Assembly: GCF_032050975.1 (NCBI RefSeq)
Contig: NZ_CP116967.1
Coordinates: 2,849,001-2,913,000 of the forward strand
Direction: 5' to 3'
Length of the DNA stretch: 64,000 nucleotides
Source of the DNA: Candidatus Nitrospira allomarina
GTDB taxonomy: Bacteria; Nitrospirota; Nitrospiria; Nitrospirales; UBA8639
The notes beneath the pieces are model-generated. The model was not told the DNA's origin. It made no database searches and saw nothing but the letters and a program-made list of their open reading frames with translations. The translations under genes were made by a program, and so were the position numbers. Every line of letters begins with the position of its first letter. Position 1 is the first letter of the stretch. This document shows, piece by piece, positions 47,760 to 54,348 of this stretch.

Positions 47760-47875
47760 GTGTTCGTGATCACCCAGGAACTCAATACATTTGTGACGGG
47801 AGGTGGTGAATTCAATTATGTTGCCTTTTCATCGGTATATGAGTGACAGAGCCTAACCTGAAGACAATGAGGGAG

Positions 47876-47921
47876 TGTTCAAAAAGGACTGTCCGGCAAC
47901 GCCGCTGGCAGTGTTGTTCAA
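47876..47921 (+). repeat. Short internally deleted copy of the dispersed repeat
   Basis: GTTCAAAAAGGACTGTCCGG followed closely by CGCCGCTGGCAGTGTTGTTC corresponds to the left and right ends of the longer element at 48000-48110 joined without its middle. The ends are imperfect inverted repeats of each other. Inference from comparison within the window. Confidence 0.5.
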
Positions 47922-47924
47922 TAT

Positions 47925-48110
47925 GGGAGTCTTGAATAATAATAATTTCCAAGGGCATATTGACCCCCAGGCACGTTGCCTATTAGAGGCTCGGGGCGGT
48001 TCAAAAAAGTTCGTCCAGCAAGGCCGCAGTCATTTTTGCGCGCAGAGCGTACTGCCAGTACGTGAGCACGGAAACATGGCGAGAACGCCGCTGGCGGCTT
48101 TTTTCAACAG
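47925..48110 (+). repeat. Dispersed intergenic repeat, copy A
   Basis: This 186-base stretch is recognisably similar, in inverted orientation, to 53985-54220. Shared blocks include GGTCAATAT-like and CCTTGGAAAT-like segments (as complement), GGGCGGTT followed by an A-run, GTCCAG, TTTTGCGC.CAGAGCG and AACGCCGCTGGCG. The right part contains the palindrome GTACT-GCC-AGTAC (48049-48061) and ends CTTTTTTCAAC, an imperfect inverted match to GTTCAAAAAAG at 47999. It has no coding potential and looks like a MITE-like or REP-like element; similar intergenic elements are, to my memory, common in Nitrospira genomes. Confidence 0.68.
48086..48104 (+). terminator. Terminator-like hairpin in the repeat end
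   Basis: CGCC-GCT-GGCG followed by GC and six Ts, 330 bases after the last envelope gene. The stem is only 4-5 bp, so strength is uncertain. The same hairpin sequence recurs in copy B. Confidence 0.4.
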
Positions 48111-48123
48111 CCCCAATATGCCC

Positions 48124-49185
48124 TTACGGGAAGGCGGGTAGGGGTGCATAGACGAGGGGATGGCCAACCAATTCCTCCAGCCATTGTTCCGTGGCCTGAT
48201 GAGGAAGAGGTCGTTGGTTGAGGCGAATCTCCAGACGAAAGTCACCATTCGTGCCCACCAGACCCACTATGGCCGCGACGTCTTCCCCTTCAGGAAGGAG
48301 ATAGTCGGTCTGAAATTCTGCCAGGCTGCCATACACCCGCCCTTGCGGCTCTAAGAGCTGAAGCAACTCAGGCATATCGGACAGCGTGCAGTGAATAGAA
48401 CAGCGATACATGAACCGGGGATTGGGAGTGATTCCAGTAAAATCCAAGAGGGCGGATTCGGGAAACCCTGTGAGATACACACGCAAATTCGCAGGTTTTC
48501 CCTGGTAGGTCGCAGCCAATTGACTGGCCGACACCAAAAACTCAAAGGGATCCGGCGAGTTGAGTTCGAATTGGCAGGGTCCGAACGCATCCGGCCATGA
48601 GCAAAAGAGCGGAGTATCGGTTCGGTCTGTCTGCAGCAGCACTCGTGCGCCTTTTTGCGTCACCTCAATCGGAAGATCCAGGACCTGAATGGCGGTCCGA
48701 AAGGCATTTTCCCGGTCGGTGAGCCAAAACCGGTCCCGCCGTTTGGCAAGGGTTTCCCCTGGTGTCATGACTTCGGTGGTATGAACCCTGACCCGAATGA
48801 ATCCATGGGTATGTCGGAATCCGAGCCACAGCCAGGCCTCCGGCAGGAGTGTCGTCAGCGGCTGGGTCATGCGCCAGGGATGCGCGATCGAACAGTACGT
48901 GTTTACCGATTGATGCGTTTGAAAGATGGAGTGATAGTGGCCTGCCAATAGAAAAAAGTCGCCCTGCCAGTTGTCGAGGAGATGTAATAGGGTGACATCC
49001 TCAGTGGGCCATGGCGCGAGAGTCTGGATGCGCTGTGGATGGTCCACTTCCCATTCTTCGATATAGCCGATCATTTCCTTGTCCGCGTGGATTGAGGTCA
49101 CGCCTAACTGCCTCAATTTGCCCGCCACCGATAAAATGTCCTCGAAGGAGAGCGTCGCTTGGGTTTCCCAACGATGTTCACGCAT
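48124..49185 (-). CDS. Hypothetical protein, 353 residues
   Basis: One clean frame with no signal peptide or membrane span. The protein is rich in Trp, His and Pro, and I do not recognise a domain. The C-terminal half (about 200-345) shows alternating strands (ARVLLQTDRTDTPLFCSWP, YGSLAEFQTDYLLPEG). It ends 14 bases from the dispersed repeat and begins about 130 bases from tRNA-Ser, alone on its strand, so no operon context helps. Codon use looks like that of the surrounding chromosome. Confidence 0.7.
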   Translation of the reverse strand: MREHRWETQATLSFEDILSVAGKLRQLGVTSIHADKEMIGYIEEWEVDHPQRIQTLAPWPTEDVTLLHLLDNWQGDFFLLAGHYHSIFQTHQSVNTYCSIAHPWRMTQPLTTLLPEAWLWLGFRHTHGFIRVRVHTTEVMTPGETLAKRRDRFWLTDRENAFRTAIQVLDLPIEVTQKGARVLLQTDRTDTPLFCSWPDAFGPCQFELNSPDPFEFLVSASQLAATYQGKPANLRVYLTGFPESALLDFTGITPNPRFMYRCSIHCTLSDMPELLQLLEPQGRVYGSLAEFQTDYLLPEGEDVAAIVGLVGTNGDFRLEIRLNQRPLPHQATEQWLEELVGHPLVYAPLPAFP

Positions 49186-49318
49186 AGGTTATATTTAGCA
49201 AAGCGAAATGCGGGGCAGGTGGATCATTTGGTTCCAACGATATCGGGTAGCGGTGGCCGGAGGAAGGGGGGTGAAGGTTAAGGACCGAAGGCAAATCAGA
49301 AAAATTGGACGAAAAATA

Positions 49319-49409
49319 TGGCGGAGAGGGCGGGATTTGAACCCGCGGTAGGCTTTTGACCTACGACGGTTTAGCAAACCGTTGCCTTCGGCCACTCGGC
49401 CACCTCTCC
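49319..49409 (-). tRNA. tRNA-Ser(GCU), CCA encoded
   Basis: On the minus strand, acceptor GGAGAGG (49409-49403) pairs with CCTCTCC (49329-49323), followed by G and an encoded CCA. There is a D-loop GGCCGAGTGG, an anticodon stem-loop with GCT at 49375-49373 in GTTTGCTAAAC, a long variable arm typical of tRNA-Ser, and a T-loop GGTTCAAATCC. It reads AGC/AGU codons. Confidence 0.96.
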
Positions 49410-49843
49410 GCGCAAGTGTATGTCAATTGATTGTGACTACTTATAGAGTAACAGCATGGGTAACTTCAAGAGCAGATTGCGGCCGGATTGCGGATGAATC
49501 GCATGTTGGAAAATCCAATCCCCAAATTATGCGCCAATGATCCCCCTCACATACATATCCCTATCCATCAGAATGGTGATCCTACCATGCCCCAACGGTT
49601 CTTGGATATATTCTTAACAAGCTTTTTGTGGGATATTATGAGGTGCAAAGAAATGCCCACAGGCCAAGGTTATCCCAAAAAAAAATCTGCGGGCTATGGA
49701 ATGTGTTGGGCACCTATTGATTCCAATGGGACTGCCGGTGTTGGAATTTCCTTTGGTCCTTCTTTTGGAGCCGGTATCTCGGGAGGGATGGAGGGATGCA
49801 TGCTACACCAAGATCTTAGGCTGTTCCAACACTCCATCCAAAT
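49410..49843. other. Unassigned AT-richer stretch, possible gene remnant
   Basis: Two overlapping frames are open (49488-49856 and 49696-49890), with a nine-A run at about 49678-49686 between them. One carries a Gly-rich piece (GISFGPSFGAGISGG), the other a Cys-rich end (CSNTPSKCGKC). Neither resembles a protein family I know and neither has a convincing ribosome site. It may be the decayed 3' part of a gene. Confidence 0.3.
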
Positions 49844-50122
49844 GTGGAAAATGTAGAGAACATAACGGAACGGCCCTTACCGTTGGATAACAAAATAAAG
49901 ACTTATAGTTATACCCTCGTGATTGTGGGATGGGGATTATTTTCCCTCGGAGTGTTTCTTTCTTTTTATTTCCCAAACGAGAATTCCACAAAAATTTATT
50001 GGCCTTATTGGATAACTTACGGAGGATGGGCACTAGCTATCCTGGGGATCATTTTGCATACCTATCGATTTTTTAAGTGGCTAAAGGGGAAAAGAAAATC
50101 AGATTCTTTCCTACGCAAATGA
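49844..50122 (+). CDS. Small two-helix membrane protein
   Basis: The 92-residue product (GTG start) has two clear hydrophobic helices (about 24-45 and 56-76) and a basic C-terminus (KWLKGKRKSD). No family recognised. The exact start is unclear; a TTG at about 49880 before DNKIKTYSY is an alternative. Base composition is AT-richer than the LPS region, pointing to foreign origin along with the next gene. Confidence 0.5.
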   Translation: MENVENITERPLPLDNKIKTYSYTLVIVGWGLFSLGVFLSFYFPNENSTKIYWPYWITYGGWALAILGIILHTYRFFKWLKGKRKSDSFLRK

Positions 50123-50258
50123 TTTCAATAAAGTATTCGATCTTGAATTTTCGGAAAAACTGAATGGATTTTATCCTGACATATCGCATATTCCTGTTGC
50201 GATTCCCGGGCTCTACCCATTCCCTCCCCCATTATTCCATAGGATTGAAAGGTAATTT

Positions 50259-50893
50259 ATGCCACCACTTAAGAAGGTGAATATATCTTTTAAAAAAATT
50301 ACAAGATATTTAAACGCTCTGCCAGACTTTACCAAAGAATAGAAATTCTGTCGCAAGTGAAAAATGGTGAATATTTGGATCCAGACGATTGGAAGGAAAG
50401 TGAAAAGTTTTTGCCTTTTGTATCCAGGAAGTATTGGAATGCTTTTCAAAGCCTATGTTTTGATGGGGCCACTCTTATCGTTAAACTTAGTGGATTACAT
50501 TATGATCCATTTTTGGCAAAAGAATTGTTGTTTTCTAAGACTGGTCGTTCCAACATAATAGTACATTATCATCATTGGGAGCTTAAGGATCACAGTGAAG
50601 AAGATTCTTTTTGCCTCCTAGAGTGTAACAATACACTTTTTAAAACCCTTTTCCATCGATTCTGGTTTTCCCCTGGCTGCGAAATAAGATTTCAAGGCAT
50701 AGTTTTGAAATCCACGAGGTCCGCCGATTTTTTTCGTTGGTTCTTGCGGCATGAAAGCCCAAATAAAAATAAGGCATTGCTGGATAGGGCAGAGTTGGTT
50801 TTTGATAACCTTCACAATGGATTTCACTTTAAAGTTGAATCTGCCAAAAAAGGCATTGATTTAAGAAAACTTTTTAAAGAATTAGTTGCATGA
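50259..50893 (+). CDS. Hypothetical protein, frameshifted at an A7 run
   Basis: The longest simple frame is 50357-50893 (178 residues, GTG), but that frame stays open back to 50294 with protein-like sequence (FKRSARLYQRIEILSQ). An ATG at 50259 with GAAAGGT upstream opens MPPLKKVNISFKK in the neighbouring frame and reaches a run of seven As (50292-50298). One more A joins the two into about 211 residues. I do not recognise the protein; it is Phe- and Lys-rich, soluble, and AT-rich in codon choice, so probably acquired. Confidence 0.55.
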
Positions 50894-51531
50894 ATTAACT
50901 TATGAGCGGATCGGGTTAGAAAAAGGAGATGCGTAGTCAAATAAAGTTTTGGAGAAGCAGTCAGGAACCTTGAATTTAGATTCTTGAGCGGGGTCTCGGC
51001 CCGGCGACCGAGGTTTTGACTGCTGCGTCTCGAAGAGCGCGACCTTTGTTGTGGAGGCAAAAGGACCCAAAACCACTGGCCCCCGGCGTGATCTGCAAGA
51101 TGCCTGCGCTGCTCGCCGAATCCAGCGGGGGGCAAACTCGCCTGGCTCAAACAGTGCCCGCCTTGTTTCTGATTTCGTCTCCGCGTCTCGGCCACGCCGA
51201 AATGGCAGACCCACTTGTTTTCTTGGTCCAGCATGCGGGCGGAGCGACCGAGATTCTGGTGAATCAGCAAGAGCCCAGTGCGGGATAGTTAGAGTTAGGG
51301 GATTTGCCATGAATCCGTGGCAAAATTCTCGGGTAGCCATGGCAGGGGAGGGGAAAGGTTTGCCATTCAGTCGGTACCAACTTTAGGAATAGCCCAAAGC
51401 ATTCAGTAGGTTCATGTAGATCATTGAGTCAGCCATCAGGAAATTGACAAATGCGATCTGCCTGTTTAGCCTTTCGGTGGTGCTACCAGGAGCTAATCTG
51501 CACGGGGAACCGGGATGAGAGGAGAACATAC
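50894..51531. other. GC-rich non-coding patch with spurious frames on both strands
   Basis: From about 50990 to 51290 the composition jumps to GC-rich, with long overlapping frames on both strands that are Arg/Pro/Gly-rich and match no family. GCGACCGAG recurs at about 51004 and 51214. This is the look of a GC-rich intergenic repeat that is often mis-called as a protein. The remaining 240 bases before the antitoxin hold nothing recognised. Confidence 0.4.
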
Positions 51532-51753
51532 ATGCGAATCCAAGACATTCCAGAAATTGACCGATTAAGCACGCCAGAAAAAATTCTGCTCGTCGAGGAG
51601 CTCTGGGATCATATAGCGTCCGATCCATCCGCCGTTCCAATTCCCCAAAGTCATGCCAACGAACTCGAGAGACGACTTCACCGTCAAGAGACCCAACCCG
51701 GCCCCCTGCTCTCTTTGGAAGAATTACAAAGCAGAATCGATCGTCGTAAATGA
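51532..51753 (+). CDS. Antitoxin of a RelE/ParE-type module (addiction module component family)
   Basis: From ATG 51532 with AGAGGAGA upstream, the 73-residue protein reads LSTPEKILLVEELWDHIASDPSAV and then LERRLHRQ and a C-terminal SLEELQSRIDRR, typical of the small putative addiction module antitoxins (the TIGR02574 kind). It would bind and neutralise the toxin encoded next and repress the operon. It overlaps the toxin start by 4 bases (ATGA). Confidence 0.85.
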   Translation: MRIQDIPEIDRLSTPEKILLVEELWDHIASDPSAVPIPQSHANELERRLHRQETQPGPLLSLEELQSRIDRRK

Positions 51754-52059
51754 CCTATACGCTTCGGTTCCTGCCGGAAGTGGAGGACGATGCCGTTGCC
51801 GCATACATTTGGTATGAGCAGAAGGCGCCAGGTTTGGGTGCGGAGTTTTTGCGTACCTTTTATGGGGATGCCGGGAAATTATCAGAAAATCCATTATTGT
51901 ATCCGATCCTACATCTCAAATTTCGCCGTCGGTTGCTTCGGCGATTTCCGTATGCCATTTACTTCGGTACAGAAGAACGCGAAATTGTGGTATTCGGTTT
52001 TTTTTCATTGCGCCCGCGATCCTCGGGGCATCCAATCCATTCTCCAGCACCGGCGGTAG
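51750..52059 (+). CDS. RelE/ParE-type toxin, frameshifted at a T8 run
   Basis: The first frame (51750-52073) gives YTLRFLPEVEDDAVAAYIWYEQK, AEFLRTFYGDAGKL and FPYAIYFGTEEREIVVFGF, a ParE/RelE toxin, but the end is atypical. After the run of eight Ts (51998-52005) the expected ending FHCARDPRGIQSILQHRR is present in another frame, stopping at 52059. Removing one T restores a normal toxin of about 102 residues. As written, the toxin has a wrong C-terminus and may be inactive. Such toxins cut mRNA or poison gyrase; which one cannot be told. Confidence 0.8.
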
Positions 52060-52169
52060 TCGAAAGGGTGTAGCTCTTCATTTCCATCCTGCGTGTCTTC
52101 CGCCTCTCGGCCACAATAGATCTATCAGTGGGACGATTCCAAGACCCCCTGGACGGAGAAGGGGTGCCA

Positions 52170-52331
52170 ATGAATCAAACGCAAAACGGCGGGCAGTGGA
52201 ATCTCCTCGGCACCTTTACCTTGAATCCCGCGTCAAACCCCATGGTCGAGCTGTCTGATCAGGCCAACGGCCGGTTGGTGGCCGATGTGGGGCGGGTAGT
52301 CCGAATTCTCATCCAGGCTTCTCGTAGTTGA
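52170..52331 (+). pseudogene. Lone fragment of a golvesin/xanthan-lyase CBD-like domain
   Basis: The 53 residues from ATG 52170 contain NGGQWNLLGTFTLNP, VELSDQANGRLVADVGRVV, the core of a beta-sandwich domain found in large secreted proteins (pattern GG.W..LG.F......V.LS..A.G.V.AD.VR). Only the end of one domain is present, with no signal peptide, so it is probably the remnant of a larger surface protein. The frame is open from 52128. GGAGAAGGGG precedes the ATG. Confidence 0.45.
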
Positions 52332-52455
52332 ATCGAAAGCACCTATCTCACCGACGTATTCTCTCCTTTTTGTTTTCCGGCAACTGAAGGTGGTGAAGCT
52401 TAGGAACTTATGGTTTTTGCGAGAGTGGAGCTGACTAGCTTCACACAGGGGGCTT

Positions 52456-52785
52456 TTATGTGGAAGCTAATTTCGCCAGTTCGGTATCGACGAATGCGAG
52501 GATTTTTTCGGCATCCTCGACCAGGCCGTCTGTGATGTTGAGACCGAGAGCGAGATCTTCTTCATCCAAGGTATCGGCCAATCCGTTATTTTGTAATAAG
52601 CTGACATCCCAAAATAGTATCCCCGCAGTGGCCTGTTTTCCGTCGATGGTGGCGGCCACGTTAATATTATCGCCATGCTCAGTCGGGGTACTGATAAAGG
52701 TCGGTTCGGCACCTACTTGCTTCGCTCGTCGAATAAGGTCCATGAAGGTTTTTAATCGTTGTAGACTGGCAGGGTCTGTCCCCAT
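52456..52785 (-). CDS. Hypothetical protein, 109 residues
   Basis: The preferred start is ATG 52785, preceded by GAGGGGATATATATTG; the frame extends to 52866. The acidic soluble protein has a helical start (LQRLKTFMDLIRRAKQVG), a strand region and an acidic helix at the end (EDAEKILAFVDTELAKL). No family recognised. It follows the 71-residue gene and the DsbA-like gene on the same strand and may share a transcript. Confidence 0.55.
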   Translation of the reverse strand: MGTDPASLQRLKTFMDLIRRAKQVGAEPTFISTPTEHGDNINVAATIDGKQATAGILFWDVSLLQNNGLADTLDEEDLALGLNITDGLVEDAEKILAFVDTELAKLAST

Positions 52786-52920
52786 CAATATATATCCCCT
52801 CTCGTATGAAGGTTCAACTGGTCCACCTCCAATTTTAGATTTACCAATTCGACGGAAGGCCCGCAAGGAATCAATCGAAGGTGTAGTTCCAAGGCGTAGA
52901 TCCTATGAGCCGATTCGAAA

Positions 52921-53136
52921 TTACGCGGTTCCGTGTTGGCCCGAGGTCGAAGGATCTTGCTCGTTTCGTTTCCGGGCTCGGGTGGCAATGTTTTCCATGA
53001 GCCCAGTCAGTTTTTGATATTGCGGGTGATCGGGAGAGAGCGGTTTGCCATCTTCATCGCACATCAGTTCCTGCATCCCTTCGAGCATTGCGGCCATTTC
53101 AGGGAAAAGTTCGTCATCCGATTTTTTTCGTCCCAT
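52921..53136 (-). CDS. Small acidic hypothetical protein
   Basis: The 71-residue soluble protein is Met-, Glu- and Asp-rich (DDELFPEMAAMLEGMQEL) and begins GRKKSDDE. AAGGAAGGACACC precedes the ATG. No domain recognised. It lies 54 bases downstream of the DsbA-like gene in the same direction. Confidence 0.5.
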   Translation of the reverse strand: MGRKKSDDELFPEMAAMLEGMQELMCDEDGKPLSPDHPQYQKLTGLMENIATRARKRNEQDPSTSGQHGTA

Positions 53137-53190
53137 GGTGTCCTTCCTTTGCTATCGTTTCGAAACAAATTGATAAGTTCATCGTTTACT

Positions 53191-53826
53191 TTAAGATTTG
53201 CTGTCCTGGTTGAGAATGCTTTCGATCACCGTTTTGAGGTTTTCGGCGGTTAAGTTCGCCACGCGAATGTTTCCATCCAAGAGCACGGTTGGCGTATGGG
53301 TGACCTTGATTCGTTCCCCCCACGTCCGGCCTTTCGCGAGTGTTTTGAAAGGCTTCCCACTGGCGAGTCCTGTTTCAAATTCCGTCGGATCGAGCCCGAT
53401 CTCTTTCAGAAGGAGGGAACGCATGGTCTTATCGAAGACCTGAATATCTTTTTCGTGAATGGACTGAAAGAGGAGTTGTTTCATTTCCGGCCCTTTGCCC
53501 ATGGTGACGGCCTGATTGTACATTTCAAAGGCGGTCGGAAGTTTGCCGGGTATGACGGGAAATCCCACCATTCTAATCTCTAACTTGTCGCCAAATTCCT
53601 TTTTCAGTTTCGTTCCGACAACCCGTTCGAACATGTGGCAATGTGAGCAGTAAAAGTCAGCGAATTCAAACAGAATGACCTTGCCGGCTTCATGTTGAGA
53701 AGGCTCCCCCTCCATCAGTTCGTATTCGCCCTGTATCTTGCTCAAGGCCACATTGGCCCATCCGAGCAGGCTGATCAGGAGTATTCCTCCAATAATGCGG
53801 GATTTTTGCGTCTGTCCTGATTTCAT
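53191..53826 (-). CDS. DsbA-like thiol:disulfide oxidoreductase
   Basis: The 211-residue protein has an N-terminal signal or anchor (residues 10-28), a thioredoxin-type active site C60-S-H-C63 in FADFYCSHCHMF, and a cis-Pro (Pro179) in THTPTVLLDG, with the DsbA helical insertion between. It would form or shuffle disulfides in exported proteins. The CxHC form agrees with the DsbA/DsbC-like group (E. coli DsbA is CPHC). GAAAGGATC precedes the ATG. Substrates are unknown. Confidence 0.85.
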   Translation of the reverse strand: MKSGQTQKSRIIGGILLISLLGWANVALSKIQGEYELMEGEPSQHEAGKVILFEFADFYCSHCHMFERVVGTKLKKEFGDKLEIRMVGFPVIPGKLPTAFEMYNQAVTMGKGPEMKQLLFQSIHEKDIQVFDKTMRSLLLKEIGLDPTEFETGLASGKPFKTLAKGRTWGERIKVTHTPTVLLDGNIRVANLTAENLKTVIESILNQDSKS

Positions 53827-53984
53827 GCTTGATCCTTTCTTGATTTCGATCCTATTTTTGGACTTTTTCTCTCGAATCCTCGGAGCCTGTTAGGGTAACA
53901 TGCTCCGTTCTTGGAGGCACGCTCACGTTAGCCCATCATATCAGACTGAACCTAGGGTCCTTCAAGGTTTCCGGAAAAGGAGCT

Positions 53985-54220
53985 GATGAAGAAAGGCGCC
54001 AGCGGCGTTTTTGTCATTTCCGTCCTCACATATTGAAAGGTCGCTCTGTGCGCAAAACAACGGTTGTGACCTTCGGGACACGGCAGGCAATTTGCGGCCT
54101 CCCCTTCGACACGACTCAGGGCTGGACTGGACAAAATTTTTTCAACCGCCCAGAGACCTCTGATATGCAATGTGCCTGTTGGTCAATATCTCCTTGGAAA
54201 TAAGGAGTATTCATCACTCC
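53985..54220 (-). repeat. Dispersed intergenic repeat, copy B (inverted relative to copy A)
   Basis: Read on the minus strand this 236-base stretch lines up with 47925-48110: both share a CTCC-containing start, GGTCAATAT- and CCTTGGAAAT-type blocks (as complement), GGGCGGTT plus A-run, GTCCAG, TTTTGCGC.CAGAGCG and AACGCCGCTGGCG near the end. Copy B carries roughly 45 extra bases in the middle and lacks the GTACT palindrome. It occupies most of the 520-base gap between the DsbA-like gene and the cupin. Confidence 0.62.
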
Positions 54221-54348
54221 TGGAAAGTGAAATCGCCTCGGGGAGGTCCGGGATGTTGAGGGATTATTCCGGGTAGGAGAATTTTTTGGGATGATGGAGA
54301 GAATGGTGGAGGCGGTATCGGCATTGTTCAATTGAGGAGGACAATAAA

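Follow-up and report, generated by a model that had tools for sequence, protein, structure and literature searches.

The window, the whole stretch of 64,000 nucleotides from Candidatus Nitrospira allomarina that was analysed, carries two repeat copies in opposite orientation on either side of a 6-kb patch. Between the copies lie a tRNA-Ser gene, a DsbA-like gene, a conserved 353-aa ORF, a PF09720 antitoxin domain next to a further ORF, and AT-rich ORFs that match no Pfam family. An earlier, sequence-only reading had reported the repeats, their inverted arrangement, a short deleted copy and blocks containing CGCCGCTGGCG, and all of these are present in the sequence. The positions of the features are collected in Table 1.

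Table 1. Repeat copies, target-site duplications and neighbouring features, in window coordinates
Feature	Position	Strand	Remarks
Older B-type copy remnant	47799..47919	+	Left arm kept, core palindrome deleted; right tip 48120-48123
Target-site duplication AATAT, left of copy 1	47920..47924	.	Read from sequence
A-type MITE copy 1, 190 bp	47925..48114	+	Left arm 47925-47993, core palindrome 47994-48114
Target-site duplication AATAT, right of copy 1	48115..48119	.	Identical 5 bp, exact
353-aa ORF, genus-conserved	48124-49185	-	No Pfam match; stop codon overlaps the older MITE's right duplication
tRNA-Ser	49319-49409
Target-site duplication GGAAA, left of copy 2	53973..53977	.	Read from sequence
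A-type MITE copy 2, 244 bp, decayed	53978..54221	-	With an internal insert and a single mutated base at either tip
Target-site duplication GGAAA, right of copy 2	54222..54226	.	Exact; terminal bases of copy 2 mutated

Repeat copies at the window locus

The ends had been given as imperfect inverted repeats of the GTTCAAAAA type. This was half right, as GTTCAAAAA is an inner copy of the end with one base changed, but the outer ends are different: GGGAGTsTTGAATAA on the left and GGGGCTGTTGAAAAA on the right. The core of copy 1 scores 131 bits against model R1, and copy 2 is 79% identical to copy 1 over about 80 bp. The short deleted piece proved to be the left part of an older B-type element, flanked by TGACG (47794-47798) and TTACG (48124-48128) with one mismatch. 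Copy 1 is nested inside this older element, the core of which is deleted.

Comparison with relatives showed that the copy 2 site is filled in G010, G014, G004 and G018 and empty in G003, G017 and, less cleanly, G016. At the empty site the target GGAAA is present singly in G003 and with one change in G017. At site 1, G010 and G018 have an intact B-type element at the orthologous position, G014 has the same core deletion and the same nested arrangement, and G009 is without any element.

Two inverted copies enclosing a tRNA gene, toxin-antitoxin-like genes and orphan ORFs could suggest that they bound a composite mobile unit and that the 6-kb patch travelled with it. However, the duplications differ (AATAT versus GGAAA), the orthologous site of copy 2 is empty in relatives that keep the neighbours in place, and synteny with G010, G014 and G017 holds on both flanks and through much of the interior. 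We consider such a unit extremely improbable, and a composite transposon at this locus is refuted by the duplications and the synteny. As their duplications are not the same, copy 1 and copy 2 come from separate insertion events. The collinear DNA covers 47.0-49.63 kb and 52.3-54.67 kb of the window (84-91% identity in the main blocks), and only about 2.7 kb, at about 49.63-52.3 kb and adjoining tRNA-Ser, is variable. The earlier proposal that the copies mark or mediate rearrangements around the patch is thus not borne out: with conserved surroundings in all three relatives and independent insertion, they neither bound nor explain it. The variable segment (49630-52300) itself holds the PF09720 domain, its adjacent ORF and AT-rich ORFs.

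Distribution and structure of the element

A genome-wide search found further copies in the same genome and in relatives, with similarity far beyond chance. Using a covariance model of the core we counted 34 copies at E<=0.01 in the Ca. N. allomarina genome, a single contig of 4,553,057 bases. BLAST with window positions 47960-48125 gave 45 matches to this genome, some of them two pieces of one copy, with 30 below E 1e-3. This whole-genome work consisted of searches and selected stretches. The covariance model returned 102 core copies in G010, 57 in G014, 12 each in G023 and G031, four in G029, and 96 and 45 in two genomes from another family of the order. Altogether the element was found in 50 of 59 relatives tested; it is a short, gene-less MITE that has spread through its own nitrite-oxidiser-type genome and most of the relatives tested in the order. 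Copies measure 190-244 bp and the ORFs that cross them are short.

The element comprises a left arm and a 121-bp imperfect palindrome, with ends GGGnnTGTTGAAwAA on both sides. In the common long form of 191 bp, the outer left end GGGAGTGTTGAATAA is followed by a left arm of about 70 bp and the 121-bp core, which opens with the inner end copy (GGnnGGTTCAAAAA) and has ...CTTTTTTCAACAGnCCC at its close. This inner copy is a version of the right end with a single conserved base changed (GTTC instead of GTTG in the true end). Because it starts the 5' arm, the fold of the core reaches the right tip but leaves the true left end outside, about 70 bp away. Either core arm can hold, at fixed positions, a palindromic module of 24 bp (CCCTGAG...CGAAGGG type) that produces 24-bp length steps, giving classes of 191, 215 and 239 (L061, L064, L066 and other G010 copies).

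The core forms a single long imperfect hairpin. In 16 copies picked for diversity, from which the structure was also derived, 96% of cells are paired, both-side changes occur in 17 of 43 pairs versus 7.4 after shuffling, and displacing the partner by 1-3 bases reduces pairing to 36-42%. When 74 ungapped copies were counted separately, using the structure predicted for that set, 96.2% were paired versus 89.6% after shuffling. Complementarity of the two arms has thus been kept during evolution of the family.

Such a hairpin raises the question of whether the host retains the core for its own use, either to terminate transcription in both directions or as an mRNA-stability hairpin, with mobility secondary. 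It is strong and flanked by A/T runs on both sides, its arms show the compensatory changes described above, and only 16 of 112 copies fall within ORFs, where crude ORF calls place 74% of random positions. Moreover, copy 1, with a fold z of -4.8, sits between convergent genes. Copy 2, in contrast, has divergent genes on its two sides, and in the Ca. N. allomarina genome its fold has decayed to a z of about -0.5, compared with -1.5 to -4.0 in its other orthologues and a mean of -4.0 for random copies. The site 1 core has been deleted or rearranged in G000, G014, G017 and G004. The decay of copy 2 and the repeated loss of the site 1 core speak against conservation of a host function at either site. 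Furthermore, convergent pairs account for just 26% of copies versus 20% of random intergenic positions, and a terminator pattern scan of the region revealed no excess (9 found, 9.6 expected). The terminator function suggested by the sequence-only reading is possible on sequence grounds; retention of the core chiefly for a host role appears unlikely.

Mobility and candidate helper insertion sequences

An exact 5-bp duplication flanks 93 of the 190 distinct core-bearing copies with both ends, whereas shuffling gives an expectation of 1.1 and a maximum of 6 (500 shuffles); duplications of 4, 6 or 7 bp are rare. The 5-bp duplications are AT-rich. Together with the terminal inverted repeats, the empty site and a cognate insertion sequence (IS), they uphold the earlier reading of a non-autonomous MITE, for which both the ends and the target duplications are now defined.

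The cognate IS is about 1.23 kb long and has the same ends, 5-bp duplications and an IS5/IS1182-like DDE transposase. Three congeners have it intact; in Ca. N. allomarina it has decayed. L246 (G002; 1228 bp) has two perfect ends, the duplication TATAG and a 315-aa transposase. L246 and its relative L240 (G013; 1224 bp) have identical 15-bp ends. Both were reached through PF13751 matches in the genus, and L327, L331 and L332 are also cognate elements with matching ends and duplication. IS copies in another family of the order are flanked by the exact duplications CTTAT, CTTCA and ATGTC. The transposase contains the domains DUF772 and DDE_Tnp_1, and helpers of this 5-bp type score below the NCBIfam cut-offs, with 116-134 bits for IS5_4 (cut-off 140) and 144-149 bits for IS1182 (cut-off 270). 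The putative helper is related to both IS5 and IS1182, lies between their NCBIfam models and is formally unassigned. Past the 15-bp repeat, the right ends of MITE and IS agree at 15 of 23 positions for L246 (reached by chance in 0 of 20,000 shuffles) and 14 of 23 for L240 (5e-5); this sub-terminal match is not shared by every cognate IS copy.

From these sequence comparisons, it is very probable that the repeats are a MITE family moved by an IS5/IS1182-type DDE transposase of a related IS, and we infer mobilisation in trans by the L246-type IS family. The transposase would recognise the ends GGGnnTGTTGAAwAA and move the MITE, which would be joined to staggered cuts so as to leave the AT-rich 5-bp duplication; copies settle mainly in intergenic DNA.

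In the Ca. N. allomarina genome a protein search found a single decayed transposase fragment (C1:2836083-2836415), and domain searches with DDE_Tnp_1_6 and DDE_Tnp_1 gave no matches there. Similar decayed fragments are present in G004 and G017. As the helper survives only as a decayed fragment, the copies in this genome are probably inactive as long as they have no helper from elsewhere. An intact cognate transposase was not found in G010, the copy-richest congener counted and one with many perfect duplications, and therefore a helper since lost, or a different one, must have served there. A 1.43-kb end pair in G010 was considered as an autonomous element and rejected, as it holds an IS110-type gene (assigned by reading the protein rather than by a family search) inside a hybrid MITE, and the other G010 ends that were examined did not lead to an autonomous copy. 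The right flank of this hybrid MITE with its IS110-like gene (L051, G010:C1:1893521-1894951) matches the L004 site of the Ca. N. allomarina genome and the left flank does not, which suggests recombination there.

A second set of ends was found in G053 and G049, from another family of the order. Here the same core is bounded by CAGGnTGCGGAAAAA and a 4-bp duplication, mostly YTAR, which is present in 17 of 21 copies versus 5.4 expected (maximum 12 in 1000 shuffles); the expectation is this high because the target itself is conserved. L384 (G053), of 1316 bp, has the same perfect ends, CAGGCTGCGGAAAAA, with the duplication TTAG, and its transposase passes the NCBIfam IS5_4 model at 278.9 bits against a cut-off of 140. 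A stop interrupts the reading frame close to its beginning, and L384 may therefore be inactive. The 4-bp-type and 5-bp-type transposases are 28% identical. As judged by ends and duplications, a single core bears two transposition signatures, and there is a resident IS to match each of them. The ends may have been exchanged, or they may have diverged together.

Relation to known repeats

MITEs derived from IS5 and IS1182 are known, for example in Methanosarcina (PMC3852290). The Nitrospirales family resembles them in being short, gene-less and multi-copy, with ends that resemble a full-length IS, with target duplications and with presumed mobilisation in trans. It differs in having a long conserved palindromic core common to an order, and in that this core occurs with two end sets and two duplication lengths.

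Dispersed intergenic palindromes are also typical of REPINs (PMC3116915) and REPs, the latter being 20-40 bp palindromic repeats with a GTAG or CGTC tag at one end (PMC3733652). The high copy number, intergenic location and palindromic core of our element would suit REP/REPIN-type repeats moved by a RAYT (HUH) transposase, and the sequence-only reading had called it REP-like. That label, which goes with the absence of a target duplication, does not fit a long unit of 190-240 bp with defined terminal inverted repeats and 5-bp target duplications, for which a matching DDE insertion sequence exists, and we give a RAYT-driven origin almost no credence.

The core also recalls ERIC (RU-1) of the Enterobacterales, an intergenic, MITE-like imperfect palindrome of about 120-130 bp (PMC2759123, PMC10969869). 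In length, location and MITE-like character the 121-bp core is similar, whereas ERIC duplicates TA (PMC2759123) and the Nitrospirales MITE 5 bp or, in another family, the 4-bp YTAR. The reverse complement of the published ERIC consensus (PMC2759123) is colinear with the core at CAGCAAGGCsGCA, GGAGCkTAC, AGTAmGTGA and AACGCmGCTG. This similarity is above 1000 dinucleotide shuffles, and the local alignment was reached by 0 of 2000 hairpin-preserving shuffles for two core subfamilies. A sequence profile gave 8.8 bits versus a control maximum of 3.4 (0 of 400 hairpin-preserving shuffles). Among real ERIC copies, one of seven clearly passes the profile test and most single copies are not above controls. 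When the core model was run over eight ERIC loci, the four best matches were ERIC elements, all in the orientation expected (best E 0.012). The similarity is weak, not proven and, because it was noticed after the fact, a lead only.

A possible but unlikely reading is that the core represents an ancient palindromic module which shares descent with ERIC and rides on IS5-type ends supplied by each lineage. Such a module would have been combined with GGGnnTGTTGAA and 5-bp duplications in one family, with CAGGnTGCGGAAAAA and 4-bp YTAR in another, and with TA in ERIC. We know of no established helper for ERIC; common descent, if true, would point to a class of candidate transposases, and the resemblance, if it holds, offers a way to ask about ERIC origin. 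For the Nitrospirales, a dominant repeat class (up to about 100 copies per genome) is explained in terms of its ends, duplication lengths and candidate helpers, and naming these should aid annotation and assembly. A single structured core on two transposition systems is unusual and testable.

No matching family was found in Rfam and no matching element in plasmid and phage collections, and our literature search found no earlier description of a Nitrospirales MITE family. Almost all of the matches listed in a public genome scan were labelled Nitrospirae, Nitrospirota or Nitrospirales. Core copies also occur on contigs labelled Chromatiales and Nitrospinota (L161 and L116), which may be misbinned contigs or reflect transfer.
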